From: Campylobacter gastrosuis
GTDB lineage: Bacteria > Campylobacterota > Campylobacteria > Campylobacterales > Campylobacteraceae
Direction: 5' to 3'
NCBI RefSeq assembly: GCF_030249845.1
Contig: NZ_JANURM010000011.1
Span: 1-57,639, forward strand
DNA length: 57,639 bases
The notes below the pieces were generated by a model, which saw only the letters and a list, made by a program, of their open reading frames with translations, had not been told where the DNA came from and ran no database searches. Below, piece after piece: positions 1,517-11,849 of this stretch; positions within the stretch are counted from its first letter, which is position 1; the number at the start of each line of letters is the position of its first letter. The position numbers and the translations under genes are program-made.

Positions 1517-2746
1517 ATGCAAGGTTATTCGTTGGCGTCATCCACTTGGGATGACAAGGAGTTAAGTGCAATTGATGAAGTCATCAAAAGCGACATATTT
1601 ACGATGGGCAAACAAGTAGCTCAGTTTGAGCAAGATTTTGCCACATTTACAGGCTCAAAATACGCCGTAATGACAAGTTCTGGCTCTACTGCAAATTTAA
1701 TTGCCACAGCTGCGTTATTTTACACCAAAAATAACAAGTTAAAACGAGGCGATGAGGTTATTGTCCCAGCTGTGTCTTGGAGCACAACTTACTATCCGCT
1801 ACATCAGTATGGATTGAAGCTTAAATTTGTAGATATTGACCTATATACGCTAAATTATGATTTAGAAGCACTAAGAAGCGCTATAAGTGATAACACTAGG
1901 TTAATAATGTGTGTAAATCTACTTGGTAATCCAAATGATTTTGATGCGATTAAGGACATTATAGGCGATAAAAATATCATTTTACTTGAAGATAACTGCG
2001 AATCAATGGGTGCTGAATATAATGGCAAACAAGCTGGGACATTTGGCATTATGGGGACTTTTTCTACATTTTATTCTCATCATATGGCTACTATGGAGGG
2101 TGGTTTTGTAGTTACAGACAATGAAGAGTTATATCATATTTTGCTTTGTCTTAGAGCTCACGGCTGGACTAGAAATTTACCAAAAGATAATTTAGTTGCA
2201 CCAAAAAACGATGACTGGTTTAGCGAGGCTTTTAGATTTGTGTTGCCTGGATTTAATGTCCGTCCAGTGGAGATGAGTGGTGCTATTGGCATACAGCAAC
2301 TTAAAAAACTACCAAATTTTTTAATGCATAGAAGAGAAAATGCAAAGTTGTTTAGTAAATATTTTGAAAATCACCCTGATTTTATAATGCAAAAAGAGAT
2401 AGGTTTAAGCTCTTGGTTTGGTTTTTCTTTAATAATCCGCAAAGACTCAAAACTAAAAAGAGGCGACATTATTAAGGTCTTAGAAGCAAATAATATTGAA
2501 TATCGCCCAATTGCCACTGGCGATTTTACACAAAATGAGGTTATTAAATATTTTGATTACGAGATACACAAAGAGCTAAAAAATGCAAAATATATACACG
2601 AAAATGGCTTTTTTGTAGGCAATCACCAAGTAGATATTAGCAGACAAATCAATTTGCTAAATAGCGTCATAGGGGTGGGCAGTAAGGCTCTAAATATTAA
2701 ATTTAAAAATTCTATCGCCAATTTTGGCAACCAAAAGGCTGCGTAA
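1517..2746 (+). CDS. PLP-dependent sugar 3-dehydratase (ColD / DdhC-like, DegT-DnrJ-EryC1-StrS fold)
   Basis: The 409-residue protein has the fold-type I aminotransferase layout of the DegT family: a TSSGSTAN phosphate-binding loop near residue 53, EDNCE around 158, and the cofactor-lysine region near 185. Where aminotransferases carry the Schiff-base lysine (FFPTK), this protein has FYSHH, with His188 and His189. A histidine here is the mark of the dehydratases ColD (GDP-4-keto-6-deoxymannose 3-dehydratase) and DdhC, which remove the C3 hydroxyl of a 4-keto-6-deoxy sugar. With the heptose genes downstream, the likely substrate is a GDP-4-keto-6-deoxyheptose and the product a 3,6-dideoxyheptose precursor. 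The stop overlaps the next start (TAATG). Substrate is inference; the family and the His substitution are visible. Confidence 0.8.
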   Translation: MQGYSLASSTWDDKELSAIDEVIKSDIFTMGKQVAQFEQDFATFTGSKYAVMTSSGSTANLIATAALFYTKNNKLKRGDEVIVPAVSWSTTYYPLHQYGLKLKFVDIDLYTLNYDLEALRSAISDNTRLIMCVNLLGNPNDFDAIKDIIGDKNIILLEDNCESMGAEYNGKQAGTFGIMGTFSTFYSHHMATMEGGFVVTDNEELYHILLCLRAHGWTRNLPKDNLVAPKNDDWFSEAFRFVLPGFNVRPVEMSGAIGIQQLKKLPNFLMHRRENAKLFSKYFENHPDFIMQKEIGLSSWFGFSLIIRKDSKLKRGDIIKVLEANNIEYRPIATGDFTQNEVIKYFDYEIHKELKNAKYIHENGFFVGNHQVDISRQINLLNSVIGVGSKALNIKFKNSIANFGNQKAA

Positions 2747-3285
2747 TGGCGATAGAATTTGATATTAAAGAATCAAAAACGCTAAAAGGCGTGTATATAA
2801 TAACTCCAAATAAATTTAAAGACCTAAGAGGCGAGATTTGGTCAGCATTTACTAGCGAAGCCATAGACTCTCTTTTGCCTAATAATCTTAAATTTATCCA
2901 CGACAAATTCATTCACTCTAAGCACAATGTAATTCGTGGCATTCACGGCGACAAAAACACATATAAATTTGCAACTTGCGTGTATGGTCAGATTTGTCAA
3001 GTTGTTGTAGATTGTAGAGAGGATAGTCCAACCTACCTAAAATATGAAAAATTTACAATTGATGCAGACAATCAACAAATGATACTCGTCCCAGCCGGTT
3101 TTGGCAACGCACATTATGTCTGTTCTGATAGTGCCGTGTATTATTACAAATGTGCATATATAGGCAAATACACAGACGCGGATGAGCAATTTACCTACGC
3201 TTGGAATGACCCAAGAATAGGCATAGAGTGGCCAACACAAACTCCGATTTTATCTCAAAGAGATATCTTGGCTATGCAAAACTAA
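2746..3285 (+). CDS. RmlC-like nucleotide-sugar 3,5-epimerase, copy 1
   Basis: The 179-residue cupin belongs to the dTDP-4-dehydrorhamnose 3,5-epimerase family. It keeps the three catalytic positions: His67 in RGIHG, Tyr134 in VYYYK and Asp173 in SQRD. These match, from memory, the positions reported for the C. jejuni heptose epimerases MlghB/DdahB. Residue 123 is His (GNAHYV), where copy 2 has Gln, a difference near the sugar pocket. It likely epimerises C3 and/or C5 of the GDP-4-keto heptose. The ATG overlaps the stop of the PLP enzyme, so the two are probably translationally coupled. Its first ~65 bases and the preceding dozen are almost identical to those of copy 2 at 5642, showing duplication or gene conversion. 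Confidence 0.8.
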   Translation: MAIEFDIKESKTLKGVYIITPNKFKDLRGEIWSAFTSEAIDSLLPNNLKFIHDKFIHSKHNVIRGIHGDKNTYKFATCVYGQICQVVVDCREDSPTYLKYEKFTIDADNQQMILVPAGFGNAHYVCSDSAVYYYKCAYIGKYTDADEQFTYAWNDPRIGIEWPTQTPILSQRDILAMQN

Positions 3286-3445: not shown

Positions 3446-4573
3446 ATGAATAAAAACTCAAAAATTTACATAGCAGGGCATAAAGGATTAGTTGGCAGTG
3501 CCATTTTACAAGAGTTGCAAAATCAGGGCTATACAAATTTAATCTATAAAACTCACGATGAGCTAGATTTAATAAACCAAAGTGCCGTGAATGATTTTTT
3601 TAAAAAACAAAAACCAGAATATGTAATATTATCAGCAGCCAAAGCTGGCGGAATAATGGCAAATAGTATTTCACGAGCAGACTTTATCTATCAAAATTTA
3701 ATGATAGAATGTAATGTAATCCACGAAGCATATAAAAGCGGAGTTAAGAAGTTAATTTTTGTAGCTTCAACCACCGTATATCCAAAAAATGCCGCCTTGC
3801 CGACATCTGAAAGTGCTATGCTAACCGGGGACTTAGAATACACAAACAAACCTTATGCTATATCCAAAATCGCTGGTTGTATGCTTTGTGAGTCTTATAA
3901 TTTGCAATATGGCACAAATTTTATTGCTATTACACCTACAAATTTATATGGCAACAACGATAAATTTGACCTAGAAAAAGCCCACGTTGTGCCGGGAATT
4001 TTACGAAAAATGCACCTAGCCAAGCTTTTAAATGAAAACAATATAAGCACCTTGCTTAAAAACCTAAATTTAAGCTCGTTTGATGAGGCTAAGAGATACT
4101 TATCTAGTTTTGGAGTGAGTCAAAATAGCGTTGAAATTTGGGGTGATGGCACACCCACAAGGGAATTTTTGCATAGTAGCGATTTAGCTAATGCTGTAAT
4201 TTTTATAATGCAAAATATAAATTTTTCTGATTTAAAATCATCTTTAAAAGACATTCAAAACACTCACTTAAACATAGGACCAAATGAAAATATTACAATT
4301 AAAGAATTAGCAATTCTAATTAAAGAGATTGTTGGCTTTAAAGGCGAGCTTGTATTTAATGCAACTAAACCAAATGGGGCGATGAATAAGCTCACTGATT
4401 GCTCTAAAATCCACTCCCTTGGTTGGAAACACAAAATAAATTTAGAACAAGGCATAAAAATGATGTATGAATGGTATCAAAATGGGGGGGGGTATAGCCC
4501 ATATTTAAAACCAGTAAATAACCCTAAATTTACTCCAAATCACTGCACTCTTAAAAGGAGTGCAAATGCATAA
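3446..4573 (+). CDS. GDP-fucose-synthase-like GDP-heptose reductase/epimerase, paralogue 1
   Basis: This extended-SDR protein (375 aa) starts MNKNSKIYIAGHKG. A start 15 codons upstream is possible, but the ATG at 3446 matches the three paralogues and follows AAGG. GHKGLVG binds NADP. Aligned to E. coli GDP-fucose synthase from memory, Ser108, Tyr137 and Lys141 form the reductase triad and His180 equals the epimerase acid His179. The epimerase cysteine is Thr110. It may therefore reduce, and perhaps partly epimerise, a 4-keto heptose. A G9 tract at 4484-4492 encodes GGG and opens a 26-residue tail that ends inside the next gene's start. Its first 175 bases match paralogue 4 and its last part matches paralogue 3, so it looks mosaic. 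Confidence 0.75.
   Translation: MNKNSKIYIAGHKGLVGSAILQELQNQGYTNLIYKTHDELDLINQSAVNDFFKKQKPEYVILSAAKAGGIMANSISRADFIYQNLMIECNVIHEAYKSGVKKLIFVASTTVYPKNAALPTSESAMLTGDLEYTNKPYAISKIAGCMLCESYNLQYGTNFIAITPTNLYGNNDKFDLEKAHVVPGILRKMHLAKLLNENNISTLLKNLNLSSFDEAKRYLSSFGVSQNSVEIWGDGTPTREFLHSSDLANAVIFIMQNINFSDLKSSLKDIQNTHLNIGPNENITIKELAILIKEIVGFKGELVFNATKPNGAMNKLTDCSKIHSLGWKHKINLEQGIKMMYEWYQNGGGYSPYLKPVNNPKFTPNHCTLKRSANA
3450..3624 (+). repeat. Near-identical 5' block shared with paralogue 4 (pairs with 7317-7491)
   Basis: The two 175-base stretches differ at only two positions by eye. Past them the genes diverge abruptly (ATGTAATATT versus ATGTGTTTTT). Offset between copies is 3867 bases. Confidence 0.9.
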
Positions 4574-4594
4574 AAACTCAAAAATTTACATAGC
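4403..4594 (+). repeat. 192-base perfect direct repeat, left copy (pairs with 7150-7341)
   Basis: The block covers the last ~57 codons of paralogue 1, including the G9 tract, its stop, and the first 29 bases of paralogue 2. It is identical to the junction of paralogues 3 and 4, offset 2747 bases. Recombination between the copies would delete paralogue 2, epimerase copy 2 and paralogue 3. Confidence 0.9.
4484..4492 (+). repeat. G9 tract near the 3' end of paralogue 1
   Basis: Nine G encode Gly-Gly-Gly. With nine the gene stops at 4571-4573, overlapping the next ATG (4566). With ten it would stop at TAG 4495-4497, and with eight at TAA 4506-4508, both well short of the next gene. Confidence 0.85.
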
Positions 4595-5642
4595 GGGGCA
4601 TAAAGGCACACTTGGGTCTGCTATATTAAAAGAGCTAAAAGAGCAAAACTATACAAACTTAATTTATAAATCAAGACTAGAATTAGACCTTACAAATCAA
4701 ATGGCTGTGGCTGAATTTTTTGCATCACAAAAGCCTGAATATGTATTTTTATGTGCAGCCAAACTTGATACTTTGGGGCTTTTTACGCCCGCTAGTGTGA
4801 TTTATGAAAACATTATGCTTCAAGCAAATATCATTAATTCTGCTTATGAAAATAATGTTAAAAAACTCATATTTTATGGCTCTGCTTGGGCATATCCACA
4901 AAAAGCAACAAATCCCATCACTGAACAAGACCTGCTAAGTGGTAAACTAGACACCAAAGCCGTGGCATATGGCTTACCAAAAATCATAGGCACGAAGATG
5001 TGTGAAGCCTACAATCTGCAATACAACACCAATTTCATAACCTTATATCTTGCAAATTTATATGGGCAAACTGCCAAGTTTGACCTTACAAAGGCTAAGG
5101 TTTTACCAGCTTTACTTAGAAAATTTCATTTAGCAAAGCTTCTATATGAAGATAGATTTGACTTGGTTTTAAAGGATTTAAAACTAAACGAGAGTGAAGC
5201 AAAGGCTGTTTTAGACAAATTTGGCATCAGCAAAGATAGTGTTGAAATTTGGGGAAGTGGCGAGGTTGTGCGTGAGTTTATTCACGCTAAGGATTTAGCA
5301 GACGCTTCTATTTTTGTTATGAAAAATGTTGATTTTAATAACTTAAAATCAGAACAAGAAACACATTTAAACGTCGGCAGTGGCGAGTTTTTAAGCATTA
5401 AAGAGTTGGCATTTTTAATTAAAGATATTGTTGGATTTAAAGGCGTTATTAAATTTAATACAGACAAACCAGATTCTACAATGGACAGAATGCTTGATTC
5501 TTCAAAAATTAAAAGCTTTGGTTGGAAACACAAAATAAATTTAGAACAAGGAGTAAGAATGTTATATAAATGGTATCAAAATGGGGGGGGGTATAGCCTA
5601 AAATCTAAATCTATCGCCCAAGCCACCTTAAAGGCTGCGTAA
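4566..5642 (+). CDS. GDP-fucose-synthase-like reductase, paralogue 2
   Basis: The 358-residue protein starts MHKNSKIYIAGHKG. The ATG at 4566 is preferred over an in-frame GTG at 4560, because AAAGGAG lies seven bases upstream and paralogues align there. It keeps the reductase residues Ser106, Tyr135 and Lys139. The two epimerase residues of GDP-fucose synthase are replaced: Trp108 for Cys and Lys178 for His. That pattern predicts a pure 4-keto reductase that needs a separate epimerase, which is encoded immediately downstream. The start overlaps the stop of paralogue 1 by eight bases, and the stop overlaps the next ATG (TAATG). A G9 tract at 5583-5591 again precedes a short tail. The exact product sugar cannot be read from sequence. 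Confidence 0.75.
   Translation: MHKNSKIYIAGHKGTLGSAILKELKEQNYTNLIYKSRLELDLTNQMAVAEFFASQKPEYVFLCAAKLDTLGLFTPASVIYENIMLQANIINSAYENNVKKLIFYGSAWAYPQKATNPITEQDLLSGKLDTKAVAYGLPKIIGTKMCEAYNLQYNTNFITLYLANLYGQTAKFDLTKAKVLPALLRKFHLAKLLYEDRFDLVLKDLKLNESEAKAVLDKFGISKDSVEIWGSGEVVREFIHAKDLADASIFVMKNVDFNNLKSEQETHLNVGSGEFLSIKELAFLIKDIVGFKGVIKFNTDKPDSTMDRMLDSSKIKSFGWKHKINLEQGVRMLYKWYQNGGGYSLKSKSIAQATLKAA
5583..5591 (+). repeat. G9 tract near the 3' end of paralogue 2
   Basis: With nine G the gene reaches the TAA at 5640-5642 that overlaps the next ATG. Ten G would stop at 5594-5596 and eight G at 5599-5601. Confidence 0.85.
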
Positions 5643-6202
5643 TGGCGATAGAATTTGACATTCAAGAATCAAAAACGCTAAAAGGCGTATATATAATAAC
5701 CCCTAGCAAATTTCAGGATTTAAGAGGCGAAATATGGTCTGCTTATTCAAGCGATATTATAGATAAGCTTTTACCTAATGGTCTAAAATTTGTGCTTGAT
5801 AAATTTACGCTTTCTAAGCCAAATGTCCTAAGGGGCATTCACGGCGATGATAAATCTTATAAATTAGTAACTTGCGTAACTGGCGAAATTCACGCTGTTG
5901 TGGTAGATTGTAGAAAAGATAGTCCAACTTATTTAAAATGGGAAAAATTTATCATCAATCAAGACAATCAAAAACTCATTTTAATACCACCAAGAATGGG
6001 CAATGCCCAATACGTAAGCTCAAAATGTGAATCAATGTATTATTACAAATGGGCTTTTAATGGACAATATCCAGATGCTAATGAGCAATTTACATTTGCT
6101 TGGAACGACCCAAAAATAGCCATAGAGTGGCCAACAAATACGCCAATTTTATCTGATAGAGACATTAGTGCAATGACACAAGACCACACAAAGGGATTTT
6201 AA
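5642..6202 (+). CDS. RmlC-like nucleotide-sugar 3,5-epimerase, copy 2
   Basis: The 186-residue cupin is paralogous to the protein at 2746. It keeps His67 in RGIHG, the YYYK tyrosine at 135 (one residue later because of a small insertion) and the Asp of SDRD at 174. Residue 123 is Gln (RMGNAQYV), as I recall for the C. jejuni MlghB/DdahB enzymes, whereas copy 1 has His. It likely inverts C3 and/or C5 of the GDP-4-keto-6-deoxyheptose before reduction by a neighbouring reductase. Start and stop overlap both neighbours by one base or two (TAATG on each side), so it sits in a tightly coupled chain. The regiochemistry is inferred from family only. Confidence 0.8.
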   Translation: MAIEFDIQESKTLKGVYIITPSKFQDLRGEIWSAYSSDIIDKLLPNGLKFVLDKFTLSKPNVLRGIHGDDKSYKLVTCVTGEIHAVVVDCRKDSPTYLKWEKFIINQDNQKLILIPPRMGNAQYVSSKCESMYYYKWAFNGQYPDANEQFTFAWNDPKIAIEWPTNTPILSDRDISAMTQDHTKGF

Positions 6203-7320
6203 TGGATAAAAACTCAAAAATTTATATAGCAGGACATAAAGGCACAGCTGGGACAGCTTTGGTAAAAAATTTAAAACAAATGGGTTTTAATAATTTAATT
6301 TTAAAAACTAGACAGGAGCTAGATTTAACCAATCAAAAAGAAGTAGCTAATTTTTTTGCTACTTCAAAACCAGAGTATGTATTTTTATGTGCTGTTTTGC
6401 CGTGTGGAGCAGCAAATGTCGCACAAAGAGCTGATTTTATATATGAAAATTTAATGTTACAAAACAATGTTATTCATCATTCATATTTAAATTCAGTAAA
6501 AAAACTAATCTGTTATGGTTCTGGATATATGTATCCATATTTGGCACAAAACCCATTAAAAGAGAGTTTTATGCTTGAAGGGAATTTAGAGTATGGGGCT
6601 TATACATTTGCGATTGCCAAAATAGCCGGAGCTGCTATGTGTGAAGCATACAATATCCAGTATGGGACAAATTTTTTATGTCTAGCCTTAAATAATCTAT
6701 ATGGCACAAAGGCAAATTTTGAATTTGGCAAAAGTCGTGTATTGCCAGCATTAATACGTAAATTTCATCTTGCTAAGCTACTTGAAGAAAATAATTTCAA
6801 AGCCGTTTTAGATGATTTAAATATGGGCGAAAATGAAGCAAAAAAATTATTAAATGATTTTGGCATATCTAGCAAAAGCGTTGAGATATGGGGAAATGGC
6901 AAGGTTAAAAGAGAGTTTATTCACAGCGATGATTTAGCACAGGCTAGTATTTTTGTTATGCAAAATATAAATTTTAAAGATTTAATATTACAGCCAAATC
7001 CACAGAACACACACATAAATATAGGTTCGGGAGTAGCATACAGCATAGCCGAAGTTGCAAATATGATAAAGGATATAGTTGGATTTAAAGGCGAGCTTGT
7101 ATTTAATGCTTCTAGACCCGATTCTACTATGGATAGGCTTATGGATGTATCTAAAATCCACTCCCTTGGTTGGAAACACAAAATAAATTTAGAACAAGGC
7201 ATAAAAATGATGTATGAATGGTATCAAAATGGGGGGGGGTATAGCCCATATTTAAAACCAGTAAATAACCCTAAATTTACTCCAAATCACTGCACTCTTA
7301 AAAGGAGTGCAAATGCATAA
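6202..7320 (+). CDS. GDP-4-keto-6-deoxyheptose C4 reductase (MlghC/DdahC-like), paralogue 3
   Basis: Of the four paralogues, this 372-residue protein is closest to what I remember of C. jejuni Cj1428/MlghC-DdahC, sharing the stretch AVLPCGAANVAQRADFIYEN. NADP binds at GHKGTAG. Ser107 and Lys140 of the SDR triad are present. The position expected for the catalytic Tyr is Phe136 (TFAIAK), with a Tyr two residues earlier. The epimerase Cys and His are Tyr109 and Arg179, so epimerase activity is unlikely. It ends with the same G9 tract and tail as paralogue 1 and overlaps the next start by eight bases. Function as a C4 reductase is inferred from the resemblance. Confidence 0.75.
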   Translation: MDKNSKIYIAGHKGTAGTALVKNLKQMGFNNLILKTRQELDLTNQKEVANFFATSKPEYVFLCAVLPCGAANVAQRADFIYENLMLQNNVIHHSYLNSVKKLICYGSGYMYPYLAQNPLKESFMLEGNLEYGAYTFAIAKIAGAAMCEAYNIQYGTNFLCLALNNLYGTKANFEFGKSRVLPALIRKFHLAKLLEENNFKAVLDDLNMGENEAKKLLNDFGISSKSVEIWGNGKVKREFIHSDDLAQASIFVMQNINFKDLILQPNPQNTHINIGSGVAYSIAEVANMIKDIVGFKGELVFNASRPDSTMDRLMDVSKIHSLGWKHKINLEQGIKMMYEWYQNGGGYSPYLKPVNNPKFTPNHCTLKRSANA

Positions 7321-7341
7321 AAACTCAAAAATTTACATAGC
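7150..7341 (+). repeat. 192-base perfect direct repeat, right copy (pairs with 4403-4594)
   Basis: This is identical to the paralogue 1/2 junction, including the G9 tract, the stop, the AAAGGAG and the first codons of the next gene. The flanks diverge at once on both sides. Confidence 0.9.
7231..7239 (+). repeat. G9 tract near the 3' end of paralogue 3
   Basis: It has the same position and consequence as at 4484-4492. Nine G lead to the stop at 7318-7320, which overlaps the next ATG at 7313. Ten or eight G stop at about 7242-7255. Confidence 0.85.
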
Positions 7342-8371
7342 AGGGCATAAAGGATTAGTTGGCAGTGCCATTTTGCAAGAGTTGCAAAGTCAGGGCTATA
7401 CAAATTTAATCTATAAAACTCACGATGAGCTAGATTTAATAAACCAAAGTGCCGTGAATGATTTTTTTAAAAAACAAAAACCAGAATATGTGTTTTTTTC
7501 GGCCGCCTTTGTGGGAGGTTTTATTAAACAAAGAAAGTATCCGGCTGAATTTTTATACAACAATATAATGATGCAAAATAACGTTATACACGCTGCTGCC
7601 ACAAATGACACAAAAAAGCTCATCTACATAGCCTCAGCTTGTGTGTATCCAAAAGACGCACCTTTGCCATTAAAAGAGAGCTATATGCTAAGTGGAGCGT
7701 TTCAGCCAAATAATGAGAGTTACGCCATTGGCAAGGTCGCTGGCATAAAGCTATGTGAGTATCTAAATTTAGAGAAAAATACAAATTTTTTATGTGTAGC
7801 ACCCACTAGCATTTATGGAGAAAATGATAATTTTGACATTGAAAATTCGCACGTCCAAGCTGGAATTTTTCGTAAAATTTACCTTGCTAAACAGCTAAAT
7901 GAGGGCAATATGGATATGCTTTGTAAGGATTTGAATATGCAAAAGGACTTAGCATTAGAATTTTGTAAAAAACACGGCATATTTGATACTCACATTAAAA
8001 TGCTAGGCACAGGCACAGCGGCAAGAGAATTTGCTAACGCTAAGGATTTAGCAAATTTTTGCATACATCTTGCTTGTAATATTAATTTTAAAGACCTTTG
8101 CGAATATGATGAAAACGGCAATCTAATAAGCTCTTTTGTAAATTTCACAGATGGCACACCTATAAACATTAAGGAGTTATCGTTTTTAATTGCTAAACTT
8201 ATGAATTACAAAGGAGAACTGATTTTTCAAAATGAACTAAGCAAAGATGATGGCACATTAGCAAAAACAATGAGTGTAGAGAAATTTAATAAACTCGGTT
8301 TTAAAAATAAAATTTCAATTCAAGATGGCCTTAAAAAAATGATAGAACTTTACAATCAAAAAAATCTATAA
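7313..8371 (+). CDS. GDP-fucose-synthase-like bifunctional epimerase/reductase, paralogue 4
   Basis: The 352-residue protein starts at the ATG at 7313, preceded by AAAGGAG; an in-frame GTG at 7307 is less likely. It is the only paralogue with the full active-site set of E. coli GDP-fucose synthase as I recall it: Ser108, Cys110, Tyr137, Lys141 and His180. It could therefore both epimerise C3/C5 and reduce C4 without help from the RmlC-like proteins. Its first 175 bases match paralogue 1, but the rest is clearly different and includes a longer insert around residues 260-280. It lacks the G tract and tail and ends the overlapping chain; a promoter follows. Substrate (heptose rather than mannose) is inferred from the neighbours. 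Confidence 0.75.
   Translation: MHKNSKIYIAGHKGLVGSAILQELQSQGYTNLIYKTHDELDLINQSAVNDFFKKQKPEYVFFSAAFVGGFIKQRKYPAEFLYNNIMMQNNVIHAAATNDTKKLIYIASACVYPKDAPLPLKESYMLSGAFQPNNESYAIGKVAGIKLCEYLNLEKNTNFLCVAPTSIYGENDNFDIENSHVQAGIFRKIYLAKQLNEGNMDMLCKDLNMQKDLALEFCKKHGIFDTHIKMLGTGTAAREFANAKDLANFCIHLACNINFKDLCEYDENGNLISSFVNFTDGTPINIKELSFLIAKLMNYKGELIFQNELSKDDGTLAKTMSVEKFNKLGFKNKISIQDGLKKMIELYNQKNL
7317..7491 (+). repeat. Near-identical 5' block shared with paralogue 1 (pairs with 3450-3624)
   Basis: This is the right copy of the 175-base repeat, with two differences by eye. It overlaps the end of the 192-base repeat, so this junction shares blocks with both ends of paralogue 1. Confidence 0.9.
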
Positions 8372-11829: not shown

Positions 11830-11849
11830 AAAAAAAAAAGGGGGGGGGG
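11830..11849 (+). repeat. Orphan A10G10 tract in non-coding DNA
   Basis: Ten A (11830-11839) are followed directly by ten G (11840-11849). No intact reading frame spans it. Short open segments follow, so it is probably the contingency tract of a decayed surface-sugar gene. Confidence 0.75.

Follow-up and report, generated by a model that had tools for sequence, protein, structure and literature searches.

Candidate phase-variable gates on translational coupling at the 3' ends of reductase-like genes in Campylobacter gastrosuis

What does a slippery G tract do when it lies at the far end of the gene that carries it? The question is raised by a 57,639-base stretch of Campylobacter gastrosuis DNA (contig NZ_JANURM010000011.1; the window, below) with a G+C content of 38.7%, which holds four paralogous reductase-like genes, two RmlC-fold epimerase genes and one aminotransferase gene. 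Runs of at least seven G occur five times in the window and runs of at least seven C not at all. Paralogues 1, 2 and 3 each carry such a homopolymer, nine G long (G9), within the coding frame near the 3' end (Table 1), where a sequence-only reading of this DNA had placed them; each tract begins on a codon boundary and encodes Gly-Gly-Gly. We consider it probable that each 3'-end tract is a phase-variable gate on translational coupling to the next gene. In one tract phase, the frame would stay open across a tail of 16-26 residues and end at a stop that overlaps the next start, and a ribosome crossing that tail would unfold a predicted hairpin that hides the next Shine-Dalgarno sequence. In the other two phases, the ribosome would halt 41-69 nucleotides (nt) short and the hairpin would stay shut. 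Such a gate presumes that cells of one clone come to differ in tract length, that the hairpin exists in vivo, that the next gene gives more output in the coupled phase, through site opening, reinitiation or a combination of these, and that truncation leaves the enzyme active. Its likely effect would be a shifted ratio of downstream enzymes, and hence a different sugar made, with the tract-bearing gene not switched off.

In all three genes the G9 phase alone reaches a stop that overlaps the next ATG, as the sequence-only reading had it. The gene-frame stops at 4571-4573, 5640-5642 and 7318-7320 overlap the ATGs at 4566, 5642 and 7313 through the letters ATGCATAA, TAATG and ATGCATAA, respectively, and all three putative gates stand in the coupled phase. 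The neighbouring phases do stop early: reading the unchanged sequence in the frame that G10 would enter gave a stop 5 nt past the tract in all three genes, and the frame that G8 would enter gave stops 16, 10 and 16 nt past it in paralogues 1, 2 and 3. Measured from the last base of the early stop to the next ATG, the distances are 69/58, 46/41 and 69/58 nt; early termination ahead of the next start was correctly foreseen, and the proposed 40-75 bases gave way to a measured 41-69 nt. No frame beyond a tract enters the frame of the next gene, and fusion of neighbouring proteins by slippage was rejected for the window.

The same layout recurs in relatives. Searching collected loci by tblastn with the four reductase domains yielded 181 unique members, 38 of which have a run of at least seven G at the 3' end. 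Three of these were left out, one cut by a contig end (L167) and two with the tract inside a far longer frame (both in L215), giving an assessed set of 35 tract junctions in 22 loci, many of them mutually related; an earlier, smaller catalogue (26 tract members, 25 assessed) gave the same picture. One frame stops overlapping the next start or at most 13 nt from it in 35/35, a closeness that is partly built in, because the next start was sought around the farthest stop. Stop-to-start distances between first bases were +2 (n=12), -5 (n=10), -1 (n=6), +12 (n=2), +4 (n=2) and +3, +13 and -16 (one each), overlapping or adjacent throughout (-16 to +13 nt). The start search does not build in the presence of an open frame, nor how soon the remaining two frames close, at a median of 10 nt and at most 56 nt past the tract. 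By a strict count, exactly one frame is open in 31 junctions, two in L193 p1 and none in L004 p4, L164 and L218 p3, because the stop there falls 12-13 nt before the start. Dinucleotide-shuffled tails would be expected to show an open frame in 14.9 of the 35 junctions, and at least one was observed in 32. Judged from relatives, the layout exceeds chance. The native frame is the far frame in 25/35 and runs into an early stop in 10/35.

A predicted hairpin, absent from the sequence-only reading, would supply a mechanism for the coupling. Its 5' arm is predicted to sit in the tail with the Shine-Dalgarno sequence of the next gene paired into it, so that upstream translation would open a structure lying over the downstream start. 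Of five window junctions folded, the strongest hairpin belongs to the interrupted tract at the end of the aminotransferase gene; the tract-free overlap at 6202 yielded no predicted hairpin (z score, z, of +0.93). No T run, as of a transcription terminator, lies behind the window hairpins, no terminator scan having been made. Over the 35 tract junctions the median fold z was -3.08, with 25/35 at or below -2. Grouped into 25 sequence clusters, they had a median z of -2.83 and 16/25 at or below -2, compared with +0.11 and 4/103 for control junctions, which were 103 tight tract-free junctions in Campylobacterota loci (p 7e-11). Arms are also matched to one another: own arms paired at -12.16 kcal/mol versus -7.97 kcal/mol for swapped arms (0/5000 permutations as low), with the own arm the best of all partners in 10/25, and the arms of control junctions paired at -4.31 (own) versus -4.30 kcal/mol (swapped). 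In four junctions chosen from the 35 and aligned by hand, both partners had changed in 3/11 pairs, and L023 has a single mismatched pair. We relied on this hand alignment and the arm swap, dropping a covariation count from a MAFFT alignment because the stems fall in two registers.

Tight gene packing also occurs without a tract, with a next start at -12 to +60 nt in 39/74 tract-free Campylobacterota members, 15 of these 39 at -8 to +4. The overlap might be ordinary operon packing and the effect of the tract C-terminal switching, an account we find unlikely. The tail does change with phase, and the layout in which a 3'-end tract alters the C terminus and spares the remainder is present here; 3'-end tracts in H. 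canadensis, with two short frames and one longer, were read as C-terminal switching (passages of PMC2823697), which is also reported in gonococci (passages of PMC5320596). Yet all 35 junctions have their farthest stop at the next start, and packing needs no hairpin, whereas the hairpins of tract junctions are strong relative to the packed controls. The tail peptides themselves are alike between groups little beyond their last few residues, which are set by the Shine-Dalgarno sequence and the overlap, and the tail of paralogue 1 is predicted to be disordered.

That slippage would spare the enzyme core, another point of the sequence-only reading, fits the solved relatives and a structure model, both of which place the end of the conserved domain before the tract. 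Solved relatives align up to residue 345 of paralogue 1. An AlphaFold model of this protein from 34 sequences is confident through the last helix (residues 333-348), and the predicted local distance difference test score (pLDDT) is below 50 for residues 350-375. Beyond residue 345, none of the 74 tract-free Campylobacterota relatives has 14 residues or more (median 5), and the far frame of tract members adds about 12-70. Truncation in the early-stop phases would remove nothing up to and including the glycines, so the shortened enzyme likely keeps its core. Ordinary on/off switching of the tract-bearing enzyme was rejected as the main effect: the early-stop phases retain the residues through the three glycines, and the solved relatives end there.

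Computed opening energies bear on the direction of the effect. The median off-phase stop precedes the 5' arm of the hairpin by 32 nt. When the upstream stretch was kept single-stranded, the cost of opening the Shine-Dalgarno sequence at the three window tract junctions fell from 5.7, 4.8 and 2.7 to 0.3, 0.0 and 0.2 kcal/mol, and a ribosome parked at the early stop did not lower it in the computation. The gate could also work in reverse, with the next start blocked by a ribosome that terminates on it and the early-stop phases raising the next gene. This option, raised for the cj0045/cj0044 pair (passages of PMC8355987), counts against the sign that we favour, and we think it quite unlikely: without translation of the tail, the predicted hairpin would leave the site closed, and overlapping pairs tested in E. 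coli and Haloferax were mostly coupled positively (passages of PMC6728339).

Tract lengths were compared across related genomes, as the sequence-only reading had advised; both phases occur, and length differs between near-identical sequences. Over 468 columns, L144 (G8) matches L157 (G9) at 98.5% identity with a single gap column; L201 (G8) and L202 (G9) share 99.4% identity, again with one gap column, and L159 (G7) and L160 (G9) share 96.4%, with two. In all three sister pairs, drawn from the relatives, the gap columns equal the tract difference, and one member is coupled and the other not. Proteins P0049 and P0051, from contigs of 8,027 and 8,028 bases, share 352 identical residues and then part into a short and a long tail. 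Tracts that are invariant in the source organism, with G9 fixed and the overlap giving constitutive coupling, would suit a window that is coupled at all three tracts and lengths that come from assemblies, many of them drafts. We judge such fixity very unlikely given the 10/35 relatives out of the coupled frame, the sister sequences that differ at the tract, a further window G9 inside a gene whose frame is broken there, and indel rates of 1e-4 to 1.6e-3 per division at C. jejuni tracts (passages of PMC8355987). It is extremely improbable that the G repeat is instead an RNA element, for example a target of a RepG-kind small RNA, whose length tunes pairing and not frame: in H. pylori, a G repeat of variable length is bound by RepG, which acts on a co-transcribed gene as well, yet the repeat belongs to a leader, and translational coupling was considered unlikely in that case (passages of PMC8295292). 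Such an element would leave unexplained the overlap, and why one frame stays open when the other two soon close.

The coupling layout extends beyond the reductase family. Matches to a pattern (G8, spacer, AAGG, TRATG) occurred in 42/135 Campylobacteraceae genomes, and 10 of the 26 unique sites (30 loci) show the 3'-end coupling layout, one of them being window tract 2. Fold z was at or below -2 in 6/10 layout sites versus 1/16 other sites, the latter including L242, which has the same kind of junction as L241 and was counted there by a rule that reads the codon before the tract. In the family that holds Helicobacter, a G9 version of the pattern matched in 42/112 genomes; 5/30 sites had the layout under one added rule, that the second frame must stop within 45 nt, and z was at or below -2 in 4/5 of these versus 3/25. 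The upstream genes at layout sites include an aminotransferase gene and another that, from reading its peptide, appears acetyltransferase-like. Within the source genome we surveyed 20 stretches around listed places among 176 matches, a part of the genome and not the whole. By the survey thresholds, the 31 unique tracts (tract 3 merged with tract 1) divide into 7 internal, 6 3'-end, 5 5'-end and 13 other, with the coupling layout in three, or four counting tract 3. The last of these is a G9 near a 3' end at L221:3658-3666 on contig C1 of this genome; the next start, with TAATG, is that of a 495-codon open reading frame (ORF). On the same contig, several tracts reappear 211,326 bases away, suggesting either an extended repeat or an artefact of assembly.

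Several observations weigh against a coupling gate of this kind. Paralogues 1 and 3 share an identical 3' block (177/177 positions, 4414-4590 versus 7161-7337; 90% over 300 nt) and are therefore not two independent cases: their junctions are copies, and paralogue 2 has a tail and junction of its own. Fold z is above -2 at 10/35 junctions, above -1 at L158 p3, L195, L197 and L175 and about -1.0 at L004 p1, and the L221 junction folds weakly (z -1.3 to -1.4). Nine of the 70 off-phase stops lie at most 9 nt from the 5' arm or beyond it, where a stopped ribosome might disturb the arm. The opening cost also falls at the starts of the kinase and aminotransferase genes, from 3.3 and 2.6 to 0.1 kcal/mol, so this measure alone is not specific. 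Finally, tract lengths were taken from assemblies, in which homopolymers can be misread. With these points set beside the rest, the layout holds up as real, is found again in relatives and has more support than the sequence-only reading could tell, and the proposal of that reading, that phase variation tunes the next gene by coupling, appears supported in every part open to a sequence test.

In the window (the blocks just given) and in L157 (p1/p3), paralogues of one genome have the same block of tail plus junction, and the blocks differ from genome to genome, a pattern that suggests that the gate itself may have spread between paralogues by gene conversion. Interrupted tracts also occur at the gate position. 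The GGGGTGGG site in the aminotransferase gene would fit a gate that, while in the coupled frame, ceased to be slippery. Paralogue 3 of L159 (GGGGAGGGGG) and paralogue 2 of L144 (GGGAGGGG) carry interrupted tracts at the usual site, with the usual tail and junction and an early stop; these are possible gates fixed in the uncoupled state.

Table 1. Positions of tracts, predicted hairpins and genes in the window
Feature	Positions	Strand	Remarks
DegT-family aminotransferase gene	1517-2746	+	PF01041; stop overlaps next start (TAATG)
Interrupted tract GGGGTGGG in aminotransferase gene	2672-2679	+	relatives at this site: L002 G10, L141 G8, L142 G9
Predicted hairpin over Shine-Dalgarno sequence and start of epimerase gene 1	2707-2760	+	z -5.32, 0/200 shuffles as low
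RmlC-fold epimerase gene 1	2746-3285	+	PF00908
Paralogue 1, DdahC-like C4 reductase gene	3446-4573	+	best solved relative 7anh, residues 1-345; stop overlaps paralogue 2 start
G9 tract 1	4484-4492	+	residues 347-349; other-frame early stops 4495-4497, 4506-4508
Predicted hairpin hiding paralogue 2 Shine-Dalgarno sequence	4544-4564	+	z -3.87 for 4498-4597
Paralogue 2, reductase gene	4566-5642	+	PF01370; 7m13/7cxt 416 bits, 7anh 399 bits; stop overlaps epimerase gene 2 start (TAATG)
G9 tract 2	5583-5591	+	residues 340-342; other-frame early stops 5594-5596, 5599-5601
Predicted hairpin over Shine-Dalgarno sequence and start of epimerase gene 2	5606-5657	+	z -3.01, 1/200 shuffles as low
RmlC-fold epimerase gene 2	5642-6202	+	8dak; closest to GDP-heptose 3- and 3,5-epimerases; tract-free overlap with paralogue 3 follows
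Paralogue 3, MlghC-like C4 reductase gene	6202-7320	+	7cxt/7m13/7anc, 582-583 bits; stop overlaps paralogue 4 start
G9 tract 3	7231-7239	+	residues 344-346; other-frame early stops 7242-7244, 7253-7255
Predicted hairpin hiding paralogue 4 Shine-Dalgarno sequence	7291-7311	+	z -3.32 for 7245-7344; letters same as 4544-4564
Paralogue 4, reductase gene without tract	7313-8371	+	8ewu 345 bits

By their closest solved structures, paralogues 1 and 3 resemble heptose C4 reductases of the MlghC/DdahC type. 7ANH is DdahC and 7ANC is MlghC, C. jejuni C4 reductases for different GDP-heptose epimers (passages of PMC7949155). DdahC and MlghC are the best solved relatives of paralogues 1 and 3, respectively, matched over the whole domain; they differ in that the solved chains, of 345-353 residues, align to residue 342-345 of the window proteins and lack the tail. 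GDP-fucose synthase was rejected as the function of the paralogues, all four being below the curated cut-off: against the cut-off of 500 for the GDP-L-fucose synthase model NF047922, paralogues 1-4 scored 386, 318, 324 and 305 bits. Downstream lie a heptose-7-phosphate kinase gene (above cut-off) and an isomerase-like gene (below cut-off). Beyond the heptose genes, 11830-11849 reads A10 then G10, with no long open frame there. The further G9 mentioned above, at 556-564, is inside gene 182-1427, whose frame is broken there in the assembly into overlapping ORFs 182-661 and 531-1427; this gene has an NAD-binding domain at its start and weakly resembles UDP-galactopyranose mutase.

Because the closest solved relatives act on different GDP-heptose isomers, the likely effect of the gates would be a changed enzyme ratio. 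We give an even chance to a broader proposal, in which a portable cis module (slippery G tract, dispensable open tail, hairpin and overlapping stop and start) has spread through the sugar operons of Campylobacter and Helicobacter, controlling the following gene and not its own. Several modules in series would set the ratio of isomer enzymes and so choose the surface sugar, and much published C-terminal phase variation would be such a gate. Phase-variable genes are usually scored ON or OFF by the intactness of their own frame. If the proposal is true, 3'-end tracts would need scoring by the following gene, catalogues of phase-variable genes may credit the wrong gene or call such tracts neutral, and bacteria would have a simple route to heritable change of enzyme ratios within an operon. 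The reading is directly testable, because the sequence alone tells which phase couples and which hairpin arm matters.

How do these tracts compare with known systems? In the usual slipped-strand poly-G case, the tract-bearing gene is truncated. Our tracts resemble those of phase-variable Campylobacter surface-sugar genes in being runs of at least seven G in a sugar gene, with lengths that differ between close relatives; they differ in sitting past the conserved domain of the gene that bears them. The 3'-end poly-G of cj0045/cj0044 was reportedly studied by Kim et al. in 2012. The coupling idea was proposed for this C. jejuni pair, leaving open whether the overlap raises or lowers the next gene (passages of PMC8355987), and G11 extends translation over the cj0044c start (a table footnote in PMC4965091). 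The likeness is close, with a 3'-end tract, one length that extends the gene over the next start and a suspected effect on the next gene; the differences are that it is a single locus in another gene family, that the sign is left open and that the passages concerned mention no hairpin and no cross-species comparison. C-terminal phase variation (PMC2823697, PMC5320596) shares the 3'-end tract and the retention of most of the protein, several rows listing two short tails and one longer, and was read in the passages concerned as a change of protein sequence, once as a fusion; the words coupling and overlap are not present in the H. canadensis text (PMC2823697), which tabulates eight genes with such tracts. 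Coupling by opening a structured start (UTNI) and by termination-reinitiation (TeRe) is established, according to passages of PMC6728339, and has in common with our junctions the overlapping stop and start and the structure hiding the downstream start. There it is constitutive, whereas here a slippery tract would set the upstream frame. In the literature searched, a partial collection, we found no description of a slippery tract that sets a hairpin gate. The coupling idea itself is already in print for one locus, and a phase-variable coupling gate joins two known kinds of system.

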